A program made the translations under genes and the position numbers. Of a DNA stretch of 23,610 nucleotides, positions 250 to 16,748 are shown in pieces. The stretch's first letter is position 1. The number at the start of each line of letters is the position of its first letter. The DNA is from Saccoglossus kowalevskii (Eukaryota; Hemichordata; Enteropneusta; Harrimaniidae), in assembly GCF_000003605.2 (NCBI RefSeq), contig NW_003116457.1:80619-104228 (forward strand). The letters are read 5' to 3'. The notes beneath the pieces were generated by a model. It was not told the DNA's origin and did no database searches. It saw only the letters and a list, made by a program, of their open reading frames with translations.

Positions 250-674
250 ACTTTAAGGGATGTTGTTCGAAAATGTTTAGGGAGAGCTGGAAGGGCAAAT
301 CACGCTTCAATTGCTATACCGAGTCTAGGCACTGGATTTCTGAGATTTCCTCATGGTAAATGTGCACAGATTCTTCTTGAAGAGATCATAAACTGCATTG
401 ACAAGTATCCAAGTTCTTCAATAAAGGTAAGAGCTATGAGTAATAGTACTTAGTATACGCCCAGGAGTATATATTCGCATATCATTTAGTTCTTCACTGT
501 TTGCTGCTCAGTACATTTTTTTTACATTGTAATTTTGTGGCATGCCAACATTAACTTTCAACTTTGTCTGGCAGGAGTTTCGTTTCATCGTATTTGACGA
601 TATGAGTGTCAATGCATTTGAAAGTGAACTATCTAAGCTGCAAGACAGTGCCACTCACACAGTTGATAATTCTG
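250..674 (+). other. macrodomain, C-terminal half (exons 250-426 and 575-674)
   Basis: The peptide contains IAIPSLGTGFLRFP, the conserved substrate-loop strand of macrodomains, then a helix (CAQILLEEIINCI) and a closing strand FRFIVFD. The N-terminal half, with the ADP-ribose-binding Asn and glycine-rich loop, is outside the window, so activity cannot be judged. Unlike the two other macrodomains here, no intron splits the P-x-x-G-T-G loop. Confidence 0.88.
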
Positions 675-3600
675 GTGAGTTTAGTATAATTCATAGTAAA
701 TTTTTGTTTCATATTGTTTATAGTGGTTATTCCTAATAATAGAAACAATAGAAAATTATTGTTATAATGTATTTATTATTAGAATCTCGTTTTGTTGGGG
801 ACTGTAATAAACAGTATGGTAAGGTGGTTGTACAGATCAAACAAGGCGACTTGACGGCTGCAGATGTGGATGTAATAGTGAATCCAGTGTTTTCTGATAA
901 CTATGGTAAGTGTGAGAGATTCTTCAAAATTTGGTCAAACTCAGATTGCTGTAACAATCGGTCAGCATTTGTGCTAGTGACACAATTTGATCATAGTTAA
1001 CTTAATTATAAGTCATAAACTTAATTATAAGTCATAAGGCAGCGTCTTTGTTTGTCTCCTCACAGAACAAGGACAAATCGGAAATTCTATTTTTAAAGCT
1101 GCGGGCAGTAGTTTAGGTGCGGAGTATAAAAGCTTAAAAGACGATCTTAGGTCAGGACCAATAATTACAGGTACGTTAGCATTGTCTCATTCGTAAGCAC
1201 CTCGCCCTTTACATTAAAACAAATGGATACAGATGAATAAATAATATCAGATGACAATTGATATTCACCTTCAGTGCGGCATTTCACAATACACAAATCT
1301 TTTTCATTTCCATTTGTTCAGGGGGTGGTTCACTGCGTCGTATTCAAAACGTTATTCATATGGTATGTCCTTCTGCATCACAACTAAAGCAAGAGATTAG
1401 ACAATGTCTTTCTCTGGCTGACATGATGGAAATGAATTCTATAGCACTACCAGCTATTGGCACAGGTAACAACACCTAATTTTTGAAACAGATATTGTCT
1501 GATCTGCACAAGTATTCTCAAGTCACCCACGTGACACAGTGACATTTCGGGTCAAAGGTCACGATCATACCATGCGTATACTGTATAGGACCATGGCTAG
1601 TGTCATCAATCTGGGCACACATGTTCCCTGTGCGACCTTGCTGCATTTTAAGGTTAAAGGGTACGGTCATGGTATATGTGTGTCAGGTAATGGAACACCT
1701 AAGATCTTCAAACTTGAAACACAGCATTTAGGACAAAAGGTCGAAACATTTGTTTTTTGTGTTTTTGTTCCCAATATAACTACATGAGAAAAATAACCAA
1801 CGCCCTTACATTTTGTACACAAATCCCCCTTGCGATTTTTAACACCATGCTTAAGTTTACAATCAAAGGTCATGGTTACATTATGGGTTTATGAATTTTC
1901 GTTATATAACGGTAACTACGGGGGCACCCATGCAACTCCTGGGTATATTTTCTGGACAATGCCAAGTTTACAGTATGTGTTTGTGTTTGTTCATTATGTG
2001 TTACAGTCATGTGTGTGTTGAAATACAAGAGGGACTTCAAATTGATCATAGTATCGGATCAAAAATCAAGGTCCTCGTTTTATGTGTATGTATGTTCACA
2101 ATACAGTTCCAAGAGAAAAATAACACACACCTTTAAATTGTACACACGCACATGTCAAGACCATTTTGATTTTTCCAATCAGAAGGACGAGGTCACAGTA
2201 TATATTCACAATATTACTGCGAGGAAAACGGAAAAAATGAAATCTAGCCAAGGTTGGCATTTCTTCTGGGTGATGTCCAGTTCTATTGTGCTTTCATTTA
2301 TTGTAGAAACAATGACATTGATATTGTTTGACTGATTTAGTTGTTATTAGTTGTAATGTATTGTTGTAATATCAAGATGGATTTGCCTGGTTCTTTTAAT
2401 ATTTTGACATGAATAATATATAGCGGACAATGTGTATTATATCAACTCATGTATTGCAGGTCGTTTTGGCTTAAGTGCTGGTGAGTCTGCTGAAGGCATA
2501 ATTAAAGGGATTGAATCATTTACAAAGAATGGTAACCCTCAAAACCTTAGTCGTGTGGAGATTGTCGTATTTCAGGCTAGCATGGTTACAGAATACGCAA
2601 GACGCCTTGGAACTGGTAGCATTATTACCCATGGTGTCACTGGTGATCGTAAAACTGTTGACTCAGGTATTCAATTTATTATAATGTGTAATCTGATCAT
2701 GAAAAATCATATGTTCAGTTTTGGCGTGGCAAGCACGTTAAAGGGCGGCAGTCATTGCGCTGCGCATGTGCGACATTTGGGTTGATAAACAGTGATTTTC
2801 CCACATTCCAATGCGTTCTTCTAATGGCAATCACAAGTATGAGGTTTTGCCTGGGGCGACTTGCACTAATTACCGCCGGTGACTCCTTCAATACATTCCA
2901 ATCACCTAATTAAAGCTTGTTAACGTCCCTGTACAACAAACAGTAAAAGTCGTCATCTTTGTTTATATGAGACCCATATATCTTGCGCATGCGTAGCACG
3001 ACTACTATTGCCCTTTAAATAAAACATAAAACATTTGTTCGACATAAAGAAATAAATGCAGAACTGGAGATCATTGCACAACTGATCATGAGAAGCAGGT
3101 GTCATTATTATACTTTACACGGTGTGTCACTTATACAATGTAGTAACCGATGTGTTGCTTTCATTATGTATATATCATTTATTCCACCAAAATGTTGACG
3201 AAGTATATATTTTTGCCAAAAAATCTGGCCTGTATTTGTCTTTCCAAAATGGTTCATGTAGTATTATGATGTATTATTCTATATGAGACCTTGGGTTTAC
3301 TATAGTGAATGTAATATTAAAGTAACAGAACGGTATTATACAAGTACTAGTATGTACTCAAGGATTTATATAATTATACCAGTGTCATATTATCACCAGT
3401 GTGTTATGTGAGAGTTTGATTTTACCATGTCTTGCATGTATATTTTGGTTGACAATAATAATATCTTCTTCTTGTGGTTACAATGAGACAAGCACATTTT
3501 ATCTGATATCTTCAAATTCTCTAAGAATCATTGGAATTTTATGTATGTATTTTATTTATATCTTCAGTCAAATAATTACAAGTGTAATAAACACAGTCTA

Positions 3601-6110
3601 GCTGGTATCGATCCTGATTTCTATTTCGTTATTTAATATCTAAATTCTCAACAGGCAAGGTTGTAATAGTTAAAATAAATAGTTATTTATATATAACATA
3701 TTAAATCATGTAATTCATTCACCCCGTATCCATTCTGTCTCATGACAGAATACTCCTGTGTGATTGGTCAGATCTAACATTTCACGTACAACGTGACCCA
3801 ACCATTTCAGATGCAGAAGTTACCATCACAATCCTATCGGACAATGATAAAGAGATTCGCAAAGCGGAAGCTGAAATAAAGAAGATATTGTCGGAGGAAA
3901 TTACTGTTGATTACATTGAAGATGATATTTTAATCAAATTAGAGCGGCAGGATATCCACAAACTTGTATCTATTGGCCGTGAAAACAACGTTTCGGTTAA
4001 ATTTCTGACAGTTTTAAAACCAGGTAAAGAAAATACAATTTTTATCGAAAAAAACATCATGTTCTTAATTCAATGATTCTAGTATATTTCGCGTCATTGC
4101 AAGAACACGCGCGCATGTGTACAGTCCATATATACATGCGTTATAGCTGCGATTTAGGGTCGCAATAGTTCAAGATATTAACAAATTTAGTTCCTGGTCG
4201 CGACTTAGAATAAAATGTGTGTATGTACTTCTTCCTTAACAGGTTTCCTGCCATTGACTAGTAGTGACAAGGGAAAGCTGCAGCTAAGAGGGTTATCGAT
4301 TGATGTACCTACATACAAATTGGAAGTACGCCATTGGCTACAGAAATACAAAAAGGCAAAGGAAATAAAGAAGAAAGTTACTTGGTAAGGACATTATTTG
4401 TTCAGGTTTAAATTACTCAGTCCATATTATCTATATTGCACAAACTGTACAATTATGTTGAATTTGCAGGTCTTTTATTGACGGGCGCAACAGATATCCC
4501 TTCGACACCATTTGGAATTATGAACTTGAACTTGCGAGACAAAATGGTGAGAAGATGGTGTGTCTGAATGGAGAAGATGGCAAGCCTAAGTTTCAAGTAG
4601 ACATTAGAGCTATGACGGAAACTAACCTAAGAAATCATAAAAAATACGCTCTTGAACGAGATGGGCCTGAGGAGCTTAGTAAGCAAAACCTACTTAATAT
4701 GTCTGTTTTTATTCACATCATTTATCTCGTCATAATCATATAAGTGTCGGTTAATATTAATAATTTATTTACTATACGCATACAATAGATTAGTGTCAAT
4801 AAAAAACAACATTGGGCTGCTGCGTTAGGTGCATTATAATACTCCATACCCGTTAAACACTAACGTTTTCACATTTTTCAGCTGTTATATTTCCCGACAC
4901 CTGGATTCCATTTCCGAGGGGACATCTTTCACGGGAACCACTGCAGGTTACCCTCACTGCAGGGTCACCTGAATATCAACAGGTGGCTACCACATTCAAT
5001 GCAACAGCTGATGCAGCGCAAAATCACCAAATTGTGAAAATAGAAAGAATACAACACGAGGATCGATTTAAAGGTTATTCTTTGAAAAAAAAGCAGTTAG
5101 AAAATAAAAACAAGCGATGGTAAGTTTTTTATTTATGTCCGACGTTAGGTAATTTGAAATATTTAATTGAAAAAATGTTTAATATTTTGTCTAGGATATG
5201 ATATAATGTATCGCAAGAAGGGACTGTGACCCTTACGTTTACCATGCATGCGTGAATTTTCGAAATTTGTAGCCATTGTTCTTATACAATTTGCATACTA
5301 AAATTGTTATAGGTGGATCCTAAAACCAGGATCTGTTCAATGAAGAACTTATGAATATTCATAATCTAAAATAATCTAAACAACGTATGACCGACAATTT
5401 GTTCTAGCTAGCTCAGTCGGCATCATGTATGTCACATCGCCCGCCATGTTGGCTCCGAGTTCGAACTCATTCTTTTTGCTTTATTCATTACCCAGTAAAA
5501 CTCAGTCAGTGTTTCATCGAAGTTTTTTAATGGAGCATTCTAATTGGCCAAGAAGCACTAGGTGGATGTTAGGTATACTTACGTTCTTCAGGTATAAAAT
5601 AGGCAGCTAATCAATCAAATTATAATATTATCAGTTCAGGTTTCTGATATGTTATGCATCCATATCATTAACTAAATGTGAAATCTATGATAAATACTAC
5701 CCGAGAAAGGGAAATACTAAATACGTTTAATAAGTTTCGTAAATAAGATAGCTCAAGTATGTAATACAAATAAGTTAAGCTTATAATGTATTTTTTTTTT
5801 AAATGAACTGATTTGAACGATGATTTGAGATCCGCCGAGTGATGCTGGCGGACGCTATTGAATTAATTTCAATATGAGTTAGCGTATGTAGTCACAGGTT
5901 GATTTTAATTTGTCATGTACGTAGACAAAGCATCACATTTTGATGTAATTGCTTTTCCAGGAAAAATGAGAGGACATTATATCATGGCACGAAAAAAGAC
6001 GTCGTTGATAAAATTATTGTAGACGGATTCAACCGATCGTATGCAGGTGATAACAGTAAGTATTGAATAATCATAGCCCGGGTTCCTGTCACTGTGACCA
6101 TTTATATGTA

Positions 6111-6146
<36 letters not shown>

Positions 6147-6471
6147 ATAAAGCTACATTAAATTCATATTTTTCACTTCAGCCGGTCATTGGGAGGGCGC
6201 AGGGGTCTACTTTGCTGTGAAGTCTGGTTACTCAATGAAGACGTACTTTTCCCCGGTTGATGGTACCGGCCATAGATACATCTTCCAAGTTAAAGTACTG
6301 GTTGGTAAATGGGCAAAAGGGAAGGCAGACATGAAGGAGCCTCCACTTAAAGACGCAAATGGCACTGACAGATTTGATACAACCGTAGACAATGAAACCA
6401 ATCCGTCCATGTTTGTTATTTTCCACGATGACCAAGCATACCCCGAATATTTAATCACGTTTAAAACGTAA
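250..6471 (+). CDS. PARP14-like: PARP14-like mono-ADP-ribosyltransferase, 3' part (5' end outside window)
   Basis: Predicted to transfer single ADP-ribose units from NAD+ to proteins. Twelve GT-AG exons join in frame: 250-426, 575-674, 783-905, 1066-1170, 1322-1465, 2460-2666, 3811-4023, 4243-4384, 4470-4678, 4882-5119, 5961-6055, 6182-6471. They total 2043 nt, 680 residues plus TAA. Domains, numbered from the first codon seen: macrodomain C-terminal half (1-92), complete macrodomain (about 93-285), KH-like region (286-356), WWE (about 398-470), PARP catalytic (about 474-680). The order macro, KH, WWE, PARP is that of PARP14; PARP15 lacks the WWE. Catalytic landmarks are LYHGT with H561, GFNRSYAG, GVYFA with Y594, and EYLITF with L675, giving an H-Y-L triad typical of mono-transferases. 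No stop or frame break lies within the exons. Exon 250 opens in phase 0 after TTTTTACAG, so earlier exons must lie upstream. The gene converges on the Deltex-like gene 1.7 kb downstream. Confidence 0.93.
999..1036. repeat. perfect two-copy 19-bp tandem repeat
   Basis: AACTTAATTATAAGTCATA occurs twice head to tail in intron 783-905/1066-1170. Identical copies suggest a recent slip or duplication; no function is evident. Confidence 0.9.
1538..2340. repeat. diverged tandem repeat, unit about 325 bp, in the PARP14-like intron 1466-2459
   Basis: Landmarks recur about 320-327 bp apart: GAGAAAAATAAC at 1789 and 2112, each followed by a CCCTTACATTTTGTACAC-like string; a GTGT-rich GTTC-CAATA string near 1755 and 2085; GGTCA-containing strings near 1866 and 2190. 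An earlier partial copy with GGTCAAAGGTCA lies near 1550-1680. The copies are clearly diverged. This looks like a dispersed invertebrate repeat with internal duplication; I cannot assign a class. Confidence 0.6.
2742..3014. mobile_element. MITE-like element, copy 1 (273 bp, TTAA flanks)
   Basis: Ends are imperfect inverted repeats: AGGGCGGCAGTC... at the left and the complement of AGGGCAATAGTAGTC at the right, both leading into a GCGCATG(C) stretch about 25 bp inside. Exact TTAA flanks both sides (2738-2741, 3015-3018), the target site of piggyBac-type transposons. No coding capacity. It lies in the PARP14-like intron 2667-3810. Confidence 0.7.
3019..3810. other. remainder of intron 2667-3810, nothing recognised
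   Basis: About 790 bp of AT-rich intron with no credible reading frame, RNA gene or repeat seen. It ends in a normal acceptor, CATTTCAG, at 3810. Confidence 0.6.
3811..4023 (+). other. KH-like region between macrodomain and WWE
   Basis: This single exon (phase 1 in and out) encodes 71 residues starting AEVTITILSDNDKEIRKAEA. It predicts as strand, helix, strand, strand, helix, as in the KH-like folds PARP14 has before its WWE. The assignment rests on position and secondary-structure pattern; no GXXG nucleic-acid loop is visible. Confidence 0.6.
4243..4678 (+). other. WWE domain (exons 4243-4384 and 4470-4678)
   Basis: WWE domains bind iso-ADP-ribose or terminal ADP-ribose. The first conserved Trp (KKKVTW) is split by the intron at 4385-4469. 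It is followed by YPFDTIWNYELELARQNG and FQVDIRAMTETN, the family's N-x-x-L-E-x-A and V-D-x-x-x-M-x-x-x-N signatures. The first exon also supplies a basic helical lead-in rich in lysine. Confidence 0.85.
5346..5369. repeat. 24-bp palindrome-bearing sequence, copy 1
   Basis: It contains the perfect 16-bp palindrome TTATGAATATTCATAA and is identical over 24 bp to 6716-6739. It sits in intron 5120-5960 just before the tRNA-like SINE head. Confidence 0.85.
5401..5480 (+). mobile_element. tRNA-like SINE head
   Basis: TAGCTCAGTCGG at 5409-5420 fits the pol III A box (TRGCNNAGYNGG), and AGTTCGAACTC at 5458-5468 fits the B box, at near-tRNA spacing. The D stem and acceptor stem do not pair, so this is not a working tRNA gene. 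A SINE body probably continues into the 5480-5620 region, but I do not recognise the family. Confidence 0.5.
6114..6143. repeat. (TA)n microsatellite
   Basis: About 30 bp of alternating A and T in the last intron of the PARP14-like gene, 38 bp upstream of the final exon. Confidence 0.95.
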
Positions 6472-8210: not shown

Positions 8211-11200
8211 CTAGTATATTTCCACTTCCTTATTGAATATTCCTTTGTCTTCCAATTCTTCTCTCACTCTTCTTAGGTATGTTGGATCGGGGTAGCCAAA
8301 ACTGTGGAAAAAACGCAGAGAATGGATATTACAATTAGGTTATTATTACTATATTAGAATATATATATATGTATATATATTATAAGTGATAATTGATTGC
8401 GTTGATTACACTGACCCCATTGAACCTCCACTTCGGCGGGTTTTATGTTGAACACTCAACACCACACGGTCGATTCGACCTCGCATATTTGTCGCCCAGA
8501 CCGTAAATAGACGCCGCTGGGCAAACGCTTTCTTCAGCAATTCTAATACGTAACGACCTTCGCGGTTGTTTGGCAAAAAAGCCATTCGTTTCAAACCCAT
8601 GTACCGCTGTCCTGGATGTGGATGTGATTCCTGGAACAAAATAAAATAAATTGCATGTGTTTATTTCAAGCATTGTTTTGCGGAATTATATACGTAGAAT
8701 AATTGTATCCGGCCACATAACCCACGAACAACTCAGAACAGCATATCGTGACTATTTCTTGCGCGCGGATTCCTCAAACGCGTGACCTGCAGATGTGGAA
8801 ATAGGACTCTAATATATCCTTTTGTCTGTAGTTGACATCTTGGACATTAATTTCTATTAAAGTATGTTTGTTTGTTTTTGTTTACGACAAATTCGAGGCA
8901 TTTTACATGTCAAGTAATATGTGTACAGGAATAAATGCAACAACTACAGTATTCGCAAGTCTCTTGCCAATATCCGATTATCACCGAGCAATTCTGTATA
9001 TTCGGCTGTGCCCCATGACTGAGTTTTCAACATCCTGGGGTGTCATAACGTCACCGAAATCGAACGCGGTGCTCTCTTTTCGATGATCAAAATTTAACTG
9101 TATTATAAATCAATATTCGATGTGAGGCATTTTCTTTTAAGATGAGGTGTGCACCAGATATTCGAGTTGTTTTGTGAATAACCACTATGTGCCCCAAGTA
9201 TTTTACTCATGTTAACACTGCGTTAAAGCGAAATTTCAATATCAATCATTACGTAGTTCTTAAGTGTTTAGCGCGCACTCGAAGCGGAATTCAAACAGCA
9301 ATGCATGACGGGATTTATCACAGAAACTGGAGGACGAATAATAACAGCGCAATATATCGTTGACCAAGTTGCTCAAATTTGAAATGGTTTTGTATTACTC
9401 TTTGTCGACTTTGCGGGCACTGCCACCAAAATGAGACATACTGAAAATTATATTGTGGACAGTATTGATAACGCGTGCACTAAGAGCGTCTCCATACTGT
9501 CTCGCAGTGTACTAACAAGGAATTGGCACACGGTATTTTGTCCTCGGCTGTATATACCATTTCAGTAATTTTCATGCTTAGGAATACAAACAAATAATTG
9601 AAATGATAATAAACATAAATGAATACCACTTATACTACATATAAATGAATACTTGCATTGCACGTAGGTGTAACAACTTACAATCGAGGAATAATTTTGA
9701 TGATTCTATGACCGGATTAATATGTACAATTTTAAAATAAATTTTGATAATGTCTTTATGATTGTTATTAATTTTAAAATGTATTGTTCTTTTCGTTGAT
9801 TGAATGTACGCCACATAAAAATACTTACTCCTTGATACCCGTCCGGAATATCGTAACAAATCACAATAGTTCCGCATTCTTCGTATCCAGGCAACGATGC
9901 AAACTCTTTATAGTAGGCCATTCTTCCATCAGATGGCTGATCACCGACATTTTTAACTAAAAGTTTGCGACAGGAAGGACATTTGGTATATTTGTTGAAA
10001 TGCCCAGTAGCACAGCTATCACATATGGAATAGCCACAGCAAGTGAGACTGCGCACAACTGTATAATCACCCTCGCACATATCACATTGGCTACCAGTCC
10101 CAGCTTTCAGGCGACTTTTCAACTCCGGTACCAGCGTGAATAGCACGTTCCCAGAATTCCAGTCGTCGACATTAGTACTGGAAGTAGTGGCAGCGCGGCG
10201 TCTGAGAACCTTTGATGGCCGGTGATCTTGATAAGTTTTAGTTGCCATATCGTGGCAGATCATCCCAGGGCTACGGTACAGAGGTAGACTCGGCAGGTCG
10301 TCAATGTTTTGAGTATTCTCATATGCATATCTTGACGCCATGGTCTGTTTGAAGAACTCGATAATTAGGCTATCCCTGACGTCACTGTCGATGTCAATGA
10401 AGGTGACCTTTTTCAGGTAGCGATTGTAGACGCAAACGGAGGAAAAATCCAAAACCGCTTTATACATTGCGTGAGCGGATATATGTCTCGGAACCCCTGT
10501 TTAAAATAACAAAACAGACATTTGAGGACGGTAGTCGTCGCGCCACGCATGCGCGAGATATATGGGTCTCATATGAACAAAGATGGCGACTTTGACTGTT
10601 TAATTAGGTATTTTTAGGTGATTGGACGGTATCTAAGGAGTCACCGACGGTAATCAGTGCAAGTCGCGCCCAGGTCAACCCTCATACTTGTGATTTCCAT
10701 TAGAAGAGTGCGTTGGATTATGGGAAAGTCAATATTTATCAAGATATCAACACAAATGTCACAAATGGGAGATGGTCACGCTTCATTCAAATCTAAAAAA
10801 ACACTTTCCCTTGGTTATATAAGCCACATTTTCTAACGTCTATTACCATGAGTTCTTGCGAGCTTCCTCCTTTCTAAACGCGCTGTGATTGGTCAAGTAG
10901 ATTTCGATTGTCATTTGAAATATATAAAACATACAAAAATATATTTATATATGAAACAAATTCATGCGTTCATTAAATGAAGAATTTCACAGAGTAATTA
11001 AAAATTGATTTCCATTCTTTTCTTTTGTTAAAAACAGTCTACGCTTTGCAGCTTTTCAGCACGAATTTCAACAACAAAAACGTACAAATACATAACTGTA
11101 GACGCGTTAATTATCCGCCGGTTTTCAATTTCGCTATTTTCGCTAACAATTAAAATCCGCTTGAAATTTATTTCAGCTAAATATGTAAAAAAAAGTTTTA

Positions 11201-14200
11201 CAAATTCGTGAACTTAAAAACCCAGTAACATTTATCAAAAACATCAAAATAGTGAAATTAAATGCCAGTGAAGTTAAATGGTTATAAAGACACGACATCA
11301 CAAACTGATCTCTGAGCTTCAAGTCGGAGTAAATAATTCTCATATTATATATATATCACATAGGGCAGTGGTCATCGCGCAGCACGTGTTCGAATTTTGC
11401 GTAAACAAACAATATATTTTACACGCGTTGCGTACGTCACTATAGGTCCCGTGTCTAGCAAGACGCGGCGCGACGACCACAGCCCTGTAACATATAGTGG
11501 GTAATATACACGTGTCATTCATTCGAAATAACGGTAAATCAATAAAATCACTTGTTTGTTCGATATGGTAATCATAATTTGGTATGAAATACAGGGTAAG
11601 CCGTTTCTCTGCGTCTAAATATAAAACAAAATCACTTACCGGAACTAATGACTGGGATCGCAATTGAGTTGGCATGGTAACGATTGGCAGCATTCAAGAC
11701 GTTCATTACAGTCTGATAAGACAAATCACCACAACGTTTTCTGTGCAGACTCCACGTAGGTCCGTATGCGTGTATGATAAACATGCAGCTAAGATTACCC
11801 GCGTGGGTAACCGCATTGTCTCCAACGTTTAAACGACCGTGCTTGAGAATCCAATTGCGAGATTCTGATTGGATGTCGTATCCACCAATGTCCACAATCG
11901 TTGTGGCGAGACCGCCGCCGTGCTCCAAACTGTCATTGGTGGAATTCACAATAATGTCCGTTGGTTCTCTGGTTATATCGCCCTGTTTAACCATGATTTC
12001 TATGCCTTCTATTGTTCTGAACTTATAATACCCTGTCTGAAGGTGATATCTGAGTTCCCTCTCCCCTGAATCAGACAACTTTATATTTCGGCTCGATGGA
12101 TCGTCGAAATCAATAAAAAACGGTCGAGAATTGTCCTTGTATTTTGGTGAAATACGTCGTCCGTCCCTCGATGAGTGAAACAGTTTTCGAAGATAGTCAT
12201 CAATTTCTGCTCTGACCGCGGTCACGTGTTTAGTATCTCCATGTATAATAAGTCGTGAGTTGTCAGAGGAAAGTTTTACGTAAACGTTCGTGTGTTCGTG
12301 ATTTATCCGTTCCACTAAATTTTGCAAAGTCAGGCTTGGTAAATTGGAGCTATATTCCCTGAGCCACAGCGCACTGTCCTGGTGTAACTCTCCGACAATG
12401 GACCTGATGAGCGCCACCAGACTCTCCTTCGCCTCTGCCACATGAGGTAATACGTTGCCTTTGCGCGGTGTTTCGGTAATCACGTATTTTCCGATATCTC
12501 GCGTGATTGTGACACCATATTTGGTTTCAATGTCGTGGAGTTCTGCGTACCTTGTTTTGGAGATGAAGAACAAAATATCTTCGTCGGCTTCCACTTCTTG
12601 CCGTAAACCTGTATATGTACGAGGTCCAAAGTTTTTCACAAGCGTAGACTTATATAGATTTCCCAATCTCAATTGCATTTCGCCCTTTCTCTCTTGTTCG
12701 TCATCAAAATGATAGAAACCCATGGAGGTTGTCGGCTTCCGTGGTAGCTGGCTGTTTCTCCGGCTACGGCTCGGCCTGTCAGTAACGCTTCCATAAGGTA
12801 TCTCCTCGTCGTCTGTTTCATATATCGTTGATTGCGTGCTTTGCATAGAGTTCCGCCTGCTTGTTCGATTCCATCCATACCCAGTGGATACTCCACGTAT
12901 GTATCTTTCGGTCACCTCCTCATTCATGTTCCTCAGGGCTTCCAATGTACCGGTGAACGTTAGATCTTCCATTTCTTCATGGCGTAGAGCGTACTTTTTA
13001 GATATTTTATCAATTCGTGCCATTTCAACAAGGGTCCAAGGTTCGGCAGTGGCAGTGACTGAGCTGAAAACCTATAGTACAGACACAGACTATGAATTTG
13101 AAAACCGGAAAGGGAGTAAATAAGAATTCACGCGAAATGAGTATCTTTCGTTCGCTACAAATGGATTACGAAAGCCACAATTAAACAACAAACAGTCAGT
13201 GAATACTTCGTGAAACAGAACTGGCTCGCAGCCAATATGTTCGAGCGAACGTAAGGTATAAAAGGGCATGGGAGAGTAGACATACGTCCACTATCTGTTG
13301 GTAGTAGCTTTGTCATAACATTGATAATATACGCGTAATTATCTTCTATACCGTATATCGTTATTTGTATTGACACTGGGACTGCGTACAGAGATCTTTT
13401 CACAAACAGTAAAACGTTTCATGTAAACGGCAAACCGTCATATGTAACGACCTTACCTTTTGACACTGCCGCGCCCTAAGTCGACTCTGGTTCCAATATA
13501 AAGGTATTTTAGAAAACTGCCTTGCATCTGCAGTGATAAATGTGAAAAGTGTTTGTTTTTTTTTTGTCTGTCAACACATTTAATTATCTGTGGTGACAAT
13601 GTCTATTATTATAATAAAGGGAGACGAACACGTTATATCAAGGTAAGCAAACATCACCGAATAAACGGCATGGTAAATACTTCGTCAAATCAAAGTAAAC
13701 ACGTACTTTCTATGTCAACAGCAACTATGAGTTTACATTATATCAAGGAGTGGATACGATATAGAACAGAGCAGTATAAAAGTGATGACAAACTGAGGTC
13801 TTTCAATTCCAGTAAGACTAAAATCTTTAAAAAAAACATTCGACTGATTTGTCACCTATTACAAACAACAAGCACTGAAACTGTCGATTTATTTATGGTA
13901 CGACGAATGTTAAAGTACTGTTATTGATCTCTTACAGTTAAAGCGGCGGAGTCGTCACCTGCGCATGCGTCAGATAACGTGCCATAACGTGTCAATATTT
14001 ACAGACAAGCGACTATCCATGAGTCTTTGCGTTTTTAGCGTGTGTTGTTATCGTCGTTTGAGACTCAATTCCCGCGCGTGCGCAGATGTCGTCCCCCGCT
14101 TTAGTTGTATTGACACAACACTGTCTCCTTTACGAACTGGGTCGTCATGTTAACACCATCTGAGCAAAATACTAAAGAACAGGGAAGAAATAATAATAGT

Positions 14201-16699
14201 TGGACTACATGTTGGTGGTCCAATAAGTGGTAGTAAGTTGGCTTCGCTGATTGGCATAGAAGCTCTACGTATACTGTTGACGCAAAACTTAACATAAACA
14301 ACATAACAATGCACTATCATGATGAAGAGTACAGATAATTTCAAATACGGAAGATTTAATGGCGGGGAGAGCGCAATTTAACTTATTGTCGTCGACACAA
14401 TGAACTCACCATGGCTGAATAGAGAACAATAAGGTACCAACGACAACGGGAGACTCAACTCTGACCCGTTGTCCATGCACGGCTTTTGTGCACTGTGGTT
14501 AATGAAATTAAACAATAGATTCAATATAGCGACGGCCGATTTATACGCTTTCGTTGAACAATTGCAGTTATTCCAACCTAGAGACGGTAAACGTTTTGAC
14601 AAGTATTTATTTAACCAAGGTTGTGATTTAAAGGCAATGTGTCGTTGTATTTTCGTATTGGGGCTGTTCGCTAGAGGTGAGAGTATAACCCGTTTAATTA
14701 CGGCTTCTTCGTTTGATCACCGACATAATCATGTATGTCAGGTAGATATCGAGAGAAACCTAACGCGGAATATTCATTATGACAAAATGGTTATCTGTTC
14801 GATCCGAGTCATAGGCGGCCACTTTTCAATTGAATCCCAAGCATATACAACGTCACGGAAATTGCTCTGTATAAAACAGCTATTAATATTCCCAAAAGAT
14901 TCCAGTAACGATATACAGAAAATTAAAGAACATGGGAGTCTTACGTAATTATTGTTATATAAGGAGAAGACTCACGAGGATGATAAGTAAATGATGATTA
15001 CGTGTCGTTGATTTGATAAAAGACTTATTATAGGCCATCAATTAGGGAGAAAAATGACGTGTCGCCCATTATTGTGTGACAATGGGACAAGGACGGGGAT
15101 CTGCGCATTAATTATTTAAGCAAACACACCCCACCTTAGTCTTGTTGTCACGTTATATTAGACAGTGCGGAGTGTGTCGAAAAATTGAGTATCTGTACAG
15201 TCGTAGCCTTCGAAGAACAAAATAGACTGTGATTAGCGAGTCGTGGACGCCTGTATTTCCACAGTACGCTTAGAAGTTTGCGAGCAAACGACATGCGAAC
15301 ATACACACATAGGTAAATTTCCAGAGAGAACATAACTAGGATTTGTTAACTTTAACAAATAATATGCCAGTGCAATTCACAATTCAAGTTGAAATACCTA
15401 CCTTTTTCGGTTTCAAAAAGAAGCAGACCATTTTCATTCATCACACCGACCCTGTGTACTGCAACAACCTGGTCGCTCTTCTCGTTTACAAACTTTTTAA
15501 GATCGTCCTCAGACATATTCACATCTGGAATGTTTGAAATGTACACTACGTTTCTCATAGTGTAATCACCTATAAAACAAACATATGGAAGTATGAAATC
15601 TACACGTACATGTACACTGATTAATTTTCTATATACTAACACATTTCACCATCGCATCAAGGTACTAAATGTGATTTCAGCCGCGGAAGGAGCAAGAAAT
15701 GTACAAATGTGCAGCTGATTGTGTTATTATCTGCCGCATTCAAATGAATTCGTCCGAGTCTAACAGCAACCCGACATGTTTTACAAAGACGGTCTAAAAT
15801 CGATCGGAAAATGTGTTACTAGTAATATGTTAATCAATCCTGTATGTCAAATAACTTGAACTAGAGTATAGTGTCTGTATCACTCGGCATATAAGCGTAC
15901 ATGTGTTATTGATTGTAACTCTGGTTTATACAACACAATTCAGTTTACATACTATTATATTTACTATACGTGAACTTCACCAGTTTGTCATGCTCCCAAA
16001 TGTGATAAGTACTTACCCGACCCCCGATTTTCAAATATCCGTGTTGATATATCTTCTACGTATTTTTTAACGCAAGATAACGCTTCCTCGTCTCCCGTGA
16101 TACGACACGGCTCATCGTTATCCATCGTTATGTTGAACTCGCCAACTTTTAGAAATAGTTTCTCATATAAGGTACCCGTCACCCAAGGTTCCAGGATTCC
16201 TGTCAACTGTGGCTTAAATACCTATTATGAAAATCACATAGTAAATTATTATACATTCAAGTAACTTGGCCAGGAATGATGGATGAGACCCGTTCTTCTT
16301 TTCTAACACTCTCATTTAATCTTAGACTTGTTCGATTCCACGTTGAGTTTATTGACACTGTCACGTCATACACATATTTACCTTAGTACATAGCTTTAGT
16401 TTGAGTTTCTGTCGACCACTGAAGAACAGTGTCTGCCTTGAAAAGTATTCGGCTTCTGTGCAAAAAAGTACACTGGTTAATTTAGACAAAACAAAATAAG
16501 TAAGAAATGTCGGGTTTTCAAGTGATTATGTGAATAACCTACCCTGTGCGGAATTAAAAATGACAAGAGCACCATGTCGACCATCTTGTAGCTTCAAACT
16601 ATTTATCGTGATATTCTTCTTCTGTTTGAAGCATTTTTCCAACGAGTCCACCTTTGTGTACCACGGGAACCCACTCACATGTACAGTCACTGTGCTCAT
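8211..16699 (-). CDS. DTX3L-like: DTX3L-like Deltex E3 ubiquitin ligase with internal macrodomain (RRM-KH-RRM-KH-macro-RING-DTC)
   Basis: Predicted ubiquitin ligase that recognises ADP-ribosylated targets. Nine GT-AG exons, in transcript order: 16699-16543, 16455-16382, 16221-16017, 15569-15402, 13527-13457, 13071-11640, 10496-9829, 8630-8410, 8301-8211. Phases at the junctions are 1,0,1,1,0,1,0,2 and the sum is 3087 nt, 1028 residues plus TAG, with no interruption. Domains: RRM 1-77, KH-like 78-145, RRM 146-225, KH-like about 226-285, Ser/Arg-rich disordered linker 285-355, KH-like about 388-450 and 469-524, macrodomain about 577-760, RING 840-878, DTC about 883-1028. Start chosen at ATG 16699 (ACC ATG AGC, A at -3) because the first RRM strand begins three residues later. 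Human DTX3L is about 740 residues and has RING-DTC but no macrodomain, so this protein combines PARP9-like and DTX3L-like parts. It is transcribed convergently to the PARP14-like gene. Confidence 0.9.
8359..8384. repeat. AT-rich dinucleotide repeat
   Basis: Interrupted (AT)n tract in the last intron (8302-8409) of the DTX3L-like gene. Confidence 0.85.
8631..9828. other. intron 7 of the DTX3L-like gene, nothing else recognised
   Basis: A 1.2-kb intron splitting the DTC domain after DIPDGYQG. Minus-strand donor GA/GTAAGT, acceptor TTGTTCCAG. No repeat or RNA gene seen. Confidence 0.7.
9970..10086 (-). other. RING finger, His-to-Tyr variant
   Basis: Residues 840-878: C840-D-M-C843, C855-C856-G-Y858-S-I-C861-D-S-C864, C875-P-S-C878. 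Spacing fits a C3HC4 RING, but the position normally holding zinc-binding His (C-x-H-x-x-C) is Tyr858. The extra adjacent Cys (855/856) could replace a ligand. The RING recruits the E2 enzyme. Confidence 0.85.
10526..10778. mobile_element. MITE-like element, copy 2 (reverse complement of copy 1)
   Basis: Read on the minus strand it aligns with 2742-3014 along most of its length: shared strings include TTCTAATGG, ATCACAAGTATGAGG, GACTTGCACT, GGTGACTCCTTA/C, ATGAGACCCATATATCT and GCGCATGCGT. One terminus (TTGA) is a mutated TTAA; the other is diverged and its boundary is approximate. It lies in intron 10497-11639 of the DTX3L-like gene, starting 30 bp from the macrodomain exon. Confidence 0.75.
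10779..11639. other. remainder of intron 6 of the DTX3L-like gene
   Basis: AT-rich, no reading frame or repeat I can support. Open frames here, such as the minus-strand one at 11340-11693, simply run through the exon boundary at 11640. Confidence 0.6.
12009..13071 (-). other. KH-like repeats and Ser/Arg-rich linker of the DTX3L-like protein
   Basis: This is the first three quarters of the 1432-nt exon, residues 226 to about 580. It begins VFSSVTATAEPWTLVEMA, echoing the exon start VFKPQLTGILEPW after RRM 1. Residues 285-355 are low complexity, with two R-R-N-S sites (Ser300, Ser332) that fit basophilic kinases. Two later strand-helix-strand units (about 388-450 and 469-524) look KH-like, the second containing NVYVKLSSDNSRLIIHGD. 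No known catalytic motif is present. Confidence 0.6.
13940..14102. mobile_element. MITE-like element, copy 3 (163 bp, related ends)
   Basis: Inverted ends start AAAGCGGCGGAGTCGTCACC (left) and, on the other strand, AAAGCGGGGGACGACATCTG (right), each followed by TGCGCA(T/C)GCG. Flanks are AGTT on both sides (13936-13939, 14103-14106), or TTAA/TTAG if the site is read like copy 1. The ends resemble copies 1 and 2 but the interior differs. It lies in intron 4 of the DTX3L-like gene. Confidence 0.65.
14107..15401. other. remainder of intron 4 of the DTX3L-like gene
   Basis: Contains a plus-strand open frame to 14948 with no recognisable domain (see rejected items). Nothing else supported. Confidence 0.5.
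15570..16016. other. intron 3 of the DTX3L-like gene, nothing else recognised
   Basis: 447-bp intron between the first KH-like exon (donor TCGG/GTAAGT) and RRM 2 (acceptor TTTTATAG), phase 1. Confidence 0.75.
16017..16221 (-). other. KH-like unit after RRM 1
   Basis: Residues 78-145. The exon opens in phase 0 with VFKPQLTGILEPW and continues VTGTLYEKLFLKV, then ITMDNDEPCRITGDEEALSC and a helix KKYVEDISTRIF, a strand-strand-helix pattern seen in the KH-like repeats of PARP14/PARP9/DTX3L proteins. An alternative in-phase acceptor five codons downstream (exon starting at 16206) is possible. Confidence 0.6.
16382..16699 (-). other. RRM 1 (exons 16699-16543 and 16455-16382)
   Basis: Residues 1-77. 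First strand VTVHVSGFPW, helix VDSLEKCFKQ, RNP1-like strand HGALVIF, helix EAEYFSRQ, last strand KLKLKL. The intron falls in phase 1 directly after the RNP1-like strand. Aromatic RNA-contact residues of classical RRMs are scarce, so RNA binding is not assured; PARP14-family RRMs may serve protein interaction. Confidence 0.75.
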
Positions 16700-16748
16700 G
16701 GTTGGCCCCGGCTTCAGTAGCTTATTGTAGCGACCGGCTAATTCATAC

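Follow-up and report, generated by a model that had tools for sequence, protein, structure and literature searches.

A 23,610-nucleotide stretch of Saccoglossus kowalevskii DNA (the window; C1003:80619-104228 in a genome of 572 Mb) contains a gene that joins a macrodomain to a RING and a DTC domain, and as far as DNA can show, we confirm that this fusion in one chain is real. We propose, with a probability of about 0.8, that the gene belongs to a multi-copy family of DTX3L-type E3 ligases carrying a macrodomain of the macrodomain-1 (MD1) type in cis, directly N-terminal to RING-DTC, and that it represents a one-chain version of the PARP9/DTX3L pair. The first-pass annotation had described an unbroken splice frame from the macrodomain into RING and DTC, and this is what splicing and domain searches return; its reading of the product as a single polypeptide likewise holds at the level of predicted protein, in which a PARP9/PARP14-type macrodomain is joined to a DTX3L-type RING-DTC in a layout that recurs in paralogs.

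Gene structure and domains of the fusion protein

The fusion gene, or window copy, lies on the minus strand, starting at 16699 and ending at 8211; its nine coding exons encode 1026 amino acids plus a stop. All eight introns are GT-AG, and every junction is in phase, so that a single open frame results. By eye, coding exon 1 (16543-16699, with the start codon at 16699) holds the first half of an RRM-like module that ends in exon 2 (16382-16455), exon 3 (16017-16221) a first KH-like module and exon 4 (15402-15569) a second RRM-like module. Exon 5 (13457-13527) is 71 bases long, and the frame depends on it; a model lacking this exon was rejected, as its frame breaks and contains 47 stops. Exon 6 (11640-13071) encodes a second KH-like module and the first half of the macrodomain. 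Exon 7 (9829-10496), which is stop-free, encodes the second half of the macrodomain, the RING (about 10089-9964) and the start of the DTC domain; the middle of the DTC domain lies in exon 8 (8416-8630), and its end (GYPDPTYLRRVREEL..) together with the stop codon in exon 9 (8211-8301). The intron 11640/10496 thus falls inside the macrodomain, at loop 2, and since everything from there to the start of DTC is read from one exon, continuity over this part is independent of splice inference. At the 5' end, an acceptor near 16748 suggests an untranslated exon, possibly a non-coding exon near 18400-18340.

Pfam profiles matched the 1026-residue protein above their cut-offs for Macro (residues 600-704, 6.2e-22) and DTC (residues 887-1018, 9.2e-46), and below the cut-off for a RING preceding the DTC domain (residues 839-880, 0.0073). 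A KH_DTX3L match in exon 6 (residues 386-510, 0.0047) spans positions 2-124 of the 128 in the profile and is also below the cut-off, at 17.2 bits versus 27.4. The RRM-KH-RRM-KH repeat that we recognize by eye in exons 1 to 5 and the start of exon 6, with a VF...EPW pattern in exons 3 and 6, is matched by no Pfam RRM or KH model above cut-off; nor does Pfam find a PARP/ART domain in the 1026 residues.

Comparison with solved structures places the macrodomain closest to PARP9 chain 9qyd (95 bits), which we take to be MD1, followed by PARP14 MD1 (3q6z, 87 bits) and macroH2A (60 bits); PARP14 chains that we presume to be MD2 or MD3 score 32-40 bits. The macrodomains of two paralogs, P1 and P6, give 99 and 108 bits with PARP14 MD1 and 92 and 115 bits with PARP9, respectively, the next family scoring about 80 in both cases. 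An extract of PMC10221186 identifies 3q6z as PARP14 MD1. The C-terminus matches DTX3L at 132 bits, DTX2 at 130 and DTX1 at 113, a narrow lead for DTX3L. For this reason we assign the E3 part to the DTX3L type from the tree described below rather than from bit scores.

Paralogs and family placement

Is the fusion peculiar to this locus? A DTC profile search of the genome gave at least 18 matches, grouped into 10 loci, and a Macro profile search gave at least 21. A macrodomain lies just upstream of DTC in seven of the 10 loci: the window copy, P1, P2, P4 and P5, all on contig C1003, P6 on C1169 and P7 on C2441. In six of these (the window copy, P1, P2, P4, P6 and P7), a single spliced frame runs through Macro, RING and DTC. 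In all five full paralogs, Macro and DTC score above their Pfam cut-offs; RING exceeds its cut-off in P6 only and stays below it in P1, P2, P4 and P7.

The full copies also share their intron layout. In five of the six (the window copy, P1, P2, P4 and P7), a single exon covers half of the macrodomain, the RING and the beginning of DTC; P6 has one intron more than the others. Phase 1 for the loop-2 intron and phase 0 for the first DTC intron are common to all six, and the last DTC intron is in phase 2 in the five that have that exon; in P7 it was not found within the stretch examined. The macrodomain-RING intron of P6 has weak sites with two open choices of different phase, of which the second-ranked joint was taken, and in P7 the second-ranked acceptor was taken, which has the same phase as the first. 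In P1 (C1003:50474-49279), macrodomain and RING are separated by a long tandem array of short charged units.

Other relatives are partial. P3 (C1003:69325-67689) has by-eye KH-like modules and a macrodomain, and neither RING nor DTC was found there. P5 (C1003:188134-190036) has by-eye KH-like modules, a macrodomain and the last DTC exon only; RING and the rest of DTC were not found. The remaining three DTC loci have no macrodomain among the at least 21 Macro matches. On C259, a classic Deltex is recognized by its DTC domain (10 kb examined), and on C3016 there is a DTC fragment (4.5 and 3.2 kb examined). At C205:226001-231000, one exon encodes by-eye KH-like modules and a RING above cut-off, followed by a divergent DTC domain; with KH-like modules directly before RING and DTC and no Macro match, this gene resembles human DTX3L in layout. 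Thus, P3 and P5, in which RING is missing along with most or all of DTC, and the C205 gene, which lacks a macrodomain, indicate that the union of macrodomain and RING-DTC has not always been kept.

The first-pass annotation had proposed a tree of the macrodomain against those of PARP9 and PARP14. In that tree, the DTX-linked macrodomains group with MD1 of PARP14, of PARP9 and of two genes of the same genome, apart from MD2, MD3 and macroH2A (86/92), the order inside the group being poorly supported; together with the structure matches, this places the macrodomain, by sequence, in the PARP14/PARP9 MD1 type. Two presumed PARP14-like genes of this genome have MD1-like exons that no intron interrupts at loop 2, which argues against a recent origin of the DTX macrodomain by copying of these exons. 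In the RING-DTC tree, human DTX3L and the macro-bearing copies separate from DTX1, DTX2 and the classic Deltex of this genome with support of 70/61 when all rows are included and 100/100 when P7 and P8, which are long rows, are omitted.

Active sites and fate of the window copy

Which of the copies could be active? For macrodomain hydrolysis, an Asn or Ser and a Gly in loop 1 and a hydrophobic-aromatic pair in loop 2 are important, according to an extract of PMC10221186. The window copy keeps the Asn and Gly residues of loop 1 (NSTN..HGGG), and its loop 2 (SSGVPRH) is three residues short and lacks the pair. All three motifs on which the first-pass annotation had based a canonical macrodomain (IVNSTND, GGGLA and ISSGVP) are present, and the description fits except at ISSGVP, which is loop 2 and not canonical. 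Among the eight macrodomains, the loop-2 pair is found in five (P1, P2, P6 and, from unspliced frames, P3 and P5) and is absent from P4 (GISG), P7 (GLLG with the chosen acceptor) and the window copy (GVPRH). Loop 1 is altered in P3, which has Asp for the second Asn, in P4, which has HDTG for HxGG, and in P7, which lacks the motif. P1, P2, P5 and P6, four of the eight, carry the whole list of macrodomain residues.

Similarly, DTX2 residues His582 and Glu608 are strictly conserved and needed (PMC7615817, in extract). We located the equivalent DTC positions by counting along the DTX2 chain of the alignment. The catalytic His is kept in P1, P2, P4 and P6 (four of six full copies); it is Asp in P7 and Gln in the window copy, where the change lies in exon 8 (VVLS-VQHKT). 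The catalytic Glu is kept in all five copies that have that exon, including exon 9 of the window copy. All tested macrodomain and DTC residues are therefore kept together in three of the six full copies: P1, P2 and P6. The seven zinc cysteines of the RING are invariant in all six; P6 and P7 keep the His ligand, and another residue takes its place in the window copy, P1, P2 and P4, which have a common extra Cys. P6 is the sole full copy keeping every tested residue of macrodomain, DTC and RING.

The window copy is probably altered in key active-site residues. The His-to-Gln change puts its ADP-ribose ligase activity in doubt and leaves its DTX3L-type descent untouched. With loop 2 and the DTC His both changed, the residues speak against the suggestion, made in the first-pass annotation, that this copy couples ADP-ribose handling to ubiquitin transfer in intact form.

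We counted changes unique to the window copy against those unique to its sister P4, using P1, P2, P6 and human DTX3L as outgroups in tests that overlap in data and are not independent. For RING-DTC, the ratio of window copy to P4 was 23:8 with P1 or P2 as the outgroup (p 0.011), 28:6 with P6 (p 0.0002) and 15:2 with human DTX3L (p 0.0023); the RING-DTC of the window copy evolves faster than that of P4. The macrodomain shows no excess, at 17:22 (P1), 19:19 (P2) and 16:20 (P6). Sixty columns are invariant in the five other rows, all of them in DTC, where the human DTX3L row starts; the window copy departs from 10 of these, and all 10 changes fall in exon 8. For the macrodomain, seven of 34 columns invariant in the four other rows are changed. 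By this count the macrodomain is not spared, which speaks against a purely DTC-specific reading.

What, then, has become of the window copy? We consider it possible, at somewhat below even odds, that it serves as a functional decoy or regulator that reads ADP-ribose or binds PARP14-like partners and has given up ADP-ribose-ubiquitin chemistry. Such a role would fit a changed DTC pocket beside a macrodomain with no rate excess over P4, the retention of N-terminal modules like the KH pair of DTX3L, and the PARP14-like gene next door; it would fit less well if the window copy binds ADP-ribose only weakly, as it may, because macrodomain loop 2 is altered as well. Only slightly less likely, and a serious rival, is that the gene is on its way to becoming a pseudogene, with its frame still open. 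The changes at otherwise invariant columns in both domains, the faster evolution of RING-DTC, the shortened loop 2 and the existence of truncated relatives (P3 and P5) are all what decay would produce. However, 1026 codons and eight introns have remained intact while only about half of the residues still match P4 (88 of 181 sites in the macrodomain and 102 of 182 in RING-DTC are identical), and the relative-rate counts for the macrodomain show no excess.

It is very improbable that the locus instead holds two genes, one for a macrodomain protein whose last exon is exon 6 and one for an E3 ligase that begins upstream of the RING, in the manner of PARP9 and DTX3L. The human halves are separate proteins (extract of PMC13224862) and P3 suggests that a macro-only relative may exist, but a protein stopping there would have only half a macrodomain, since the other half is encoded together with RING and the beginning of DTC in one exon, here as in P1, P2, P4 and P7. 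This arrangement nearly excludes two genes, and we rejected that reading. Least credible of all is an artefact of assembly or gene modelling that joined unrelated exons, since the same domain order, with common intron phases, occurs at six loci on three contigs, even if the gene model was built from splice signals and homology, not from RNA.

Relation to PARP9/DTX3L and origin of the family

The window also contains the C-terminal part of a PARP14-like gene (250-6471, plus strand, 12 exons, 5' end open) with macrodomains, WWE and a PARP catalytic domain (Pfam: PARP 2.8e-20, Macro 1.2e-18, WWE 0.0015, the last just below cut-off). It is convergent with the fusion gene, tail to tail at a distance of 1.7 kb. 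By eye its catalytic triad reads H-Y-L, which we take to be the mono-ADP-ribosyl transferase type. In human, PARP9, PARP14, PARP15 and DTX3L are clustered at 3q21 (extract of PMC11080071), and PARP9 and DTX3L have a common bidirectional promoter (extract of PMC13224862).

The fusion protein resembles human DTX3L in the branch of its RING-DTC, in its below-cut-off KH_DTX3L stretch and in its PARP14-like neighbour, which recalls the 3q21 cluster (PMC11080071 and PMC13224862, both in extract). It differs in that human DTX3L has one RRM, five KH, a RING and a DTC domain and no macrodomain, as described in an extract of PMC13224862, whereas here a macrodomain lies between KH and RING. Likewise, the MD1 domains of PARP9 and PARP14 are the best sequence matches of the fusion macrodomain and group with it against MD2, MD3 and macroH2A, but the fusion protein lacks their ART domain, and the hydrophobic-aromatic pair that PMC10221186 (in extract) names for loop 2 is missing from the window copy. 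Classic Deltex proteins (DTX1, DTX2 and DTX4) share DTC with a RING; they carry WWE domains instead of macro or KH (extract of PMC12687431), and DTX1 and DTX2 branch apart. By analogy, the fusion would pair the same functions, reader or eraser and E3, as the PARP9/DTX3L complex, in one chain rather than two polypeptides. In that complex, Ub-ADPr is made and removed, and fine-tuning and proofreading have been suggested (PMC10810221, in extract). A macrodomain-Deltex fusion was not found in the open-access literature, as far as the listed titles and abstract openings and extracts of PMC11080071, PMC13224862 (including its evolution section), PMC11251020, PMC10810221, PMC10221186, PMC12583694, PMC12687431, PMC9503650, PMC10955461 and PMC4245714 go, and may well be in subscription papers or protein databases. 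PMC4038475 contains none of the terms looked for.

We propose that members of the DTX3L-type family act as follows. The N-terminal KH/RRM-like modules would tether the protein to nucleic acid or to PARP14-like partners. The DTC domain would offer ADP-ribose to the RING-bound E2-ubiquitin, and RING-DTC would ubiquitylate ADP-ribose (or lysine). The macrodomain would read ADP-ribosylated targets, or strip ADP-ribose or ubiquitin-ADP-ribose from them, so that writer and reader or eraser would be brought to one target. The window copy has probably lost both ADP-ribose hydrolysis and ADP-ribose ubiquitylation; it may persist as an ADP-ribose reader with lysine-directed RING activity or as a regulatory decoy. 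The activities of the family and of the window copy are in every case predicted from residues.

The trees favour neither an ancestral state of the fusion nor an independent origin. In the full RING-DTC tree, human DTX3L falls among the macro-bearing rows, and holding the six macro-bearing rows together gave a p_AU of 0.041; omitting P7 and additional rows gave 0.389, 0.116, 0.493 and 0.469, and the nesting of human DTX3L is not shown. One tentative scenario, to be taken as a whole, is that macro-RING-DTC is the older form of DTX3L. A PARP14-like half (RRM, KH and macrodomain 1) would have joined a Deltex RING-DTC; in vertebrates, DTX3L would have given up its macrodomain, and PARP9, a PARP14 duplicate, would have supplied one again in trans; the cis form would have expanded here into a cluster whose members are active, altered or truncated; and animal-associated bacteria would have acquired related macro-DTC proteins or evolved them.

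A pattern scan of genome contigs confirmed one of 30 matches, an intronless frame of 1040 amino acids in Endozoicomonas cretensis (OODV01000002.1; L034:3331-6453), in which Macro is matched over two stretches (4.2e-15) and DTC in full (7.3e-53). By eye, its catalytic His and Glu are kept and the next frames are transporter-permease-like. None of 20 pattern matches on viral contigs was confirmed. DTC is above cut-off in 12 of 37 genomes of the bacterial family of E. cretensis; of the 14 matches, 11 lie in open frames longer than 700 amino acids. Three further bacterial DTC frames comprise two with RING and DTC and one with DTC alone, and none of the three has Macro in the part examined. A search of open-access PubMed Central found no paper treating Endozoicomonas and Deltex together.

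A separate observation concerns a mitochondrial contig (C4830), on which, with genes named by eye, COX1 sits between ND1 and COX2 in the reverse orientation, giving the order ND1(+) COX1(-) COX2(+). This order does not match the lancelet rearrangements described in an extract of PMC2034537, and a lancelet as the source was dropped. TGA is read as Trp, AAA occurs at an apparently conserved Lys and two AGA codons lie inside the ND1 frame; the vertebrate code does not fit, and presumably the echinoderm mitochondrial code does not fit either.

Finally, the one-chain DTX3L-type family offers material for studying ubiquitin-ADP-ribose chemistry. From their residues, P1, P2 and P6 are candidate one-chain enzymes that would write and erase ubiquitin-ADP-ribose with no complex to assemble, and they could be compared with the window copy as a naturally occurring variant in which the chemistry would be lost. 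An old cis form would explain the origin of the PARP9/DTX3L partnership, and if the scenario of a cis-first DTX3L is true, it would explain why PARP9 and DTX3L both bind and adjoin each other.
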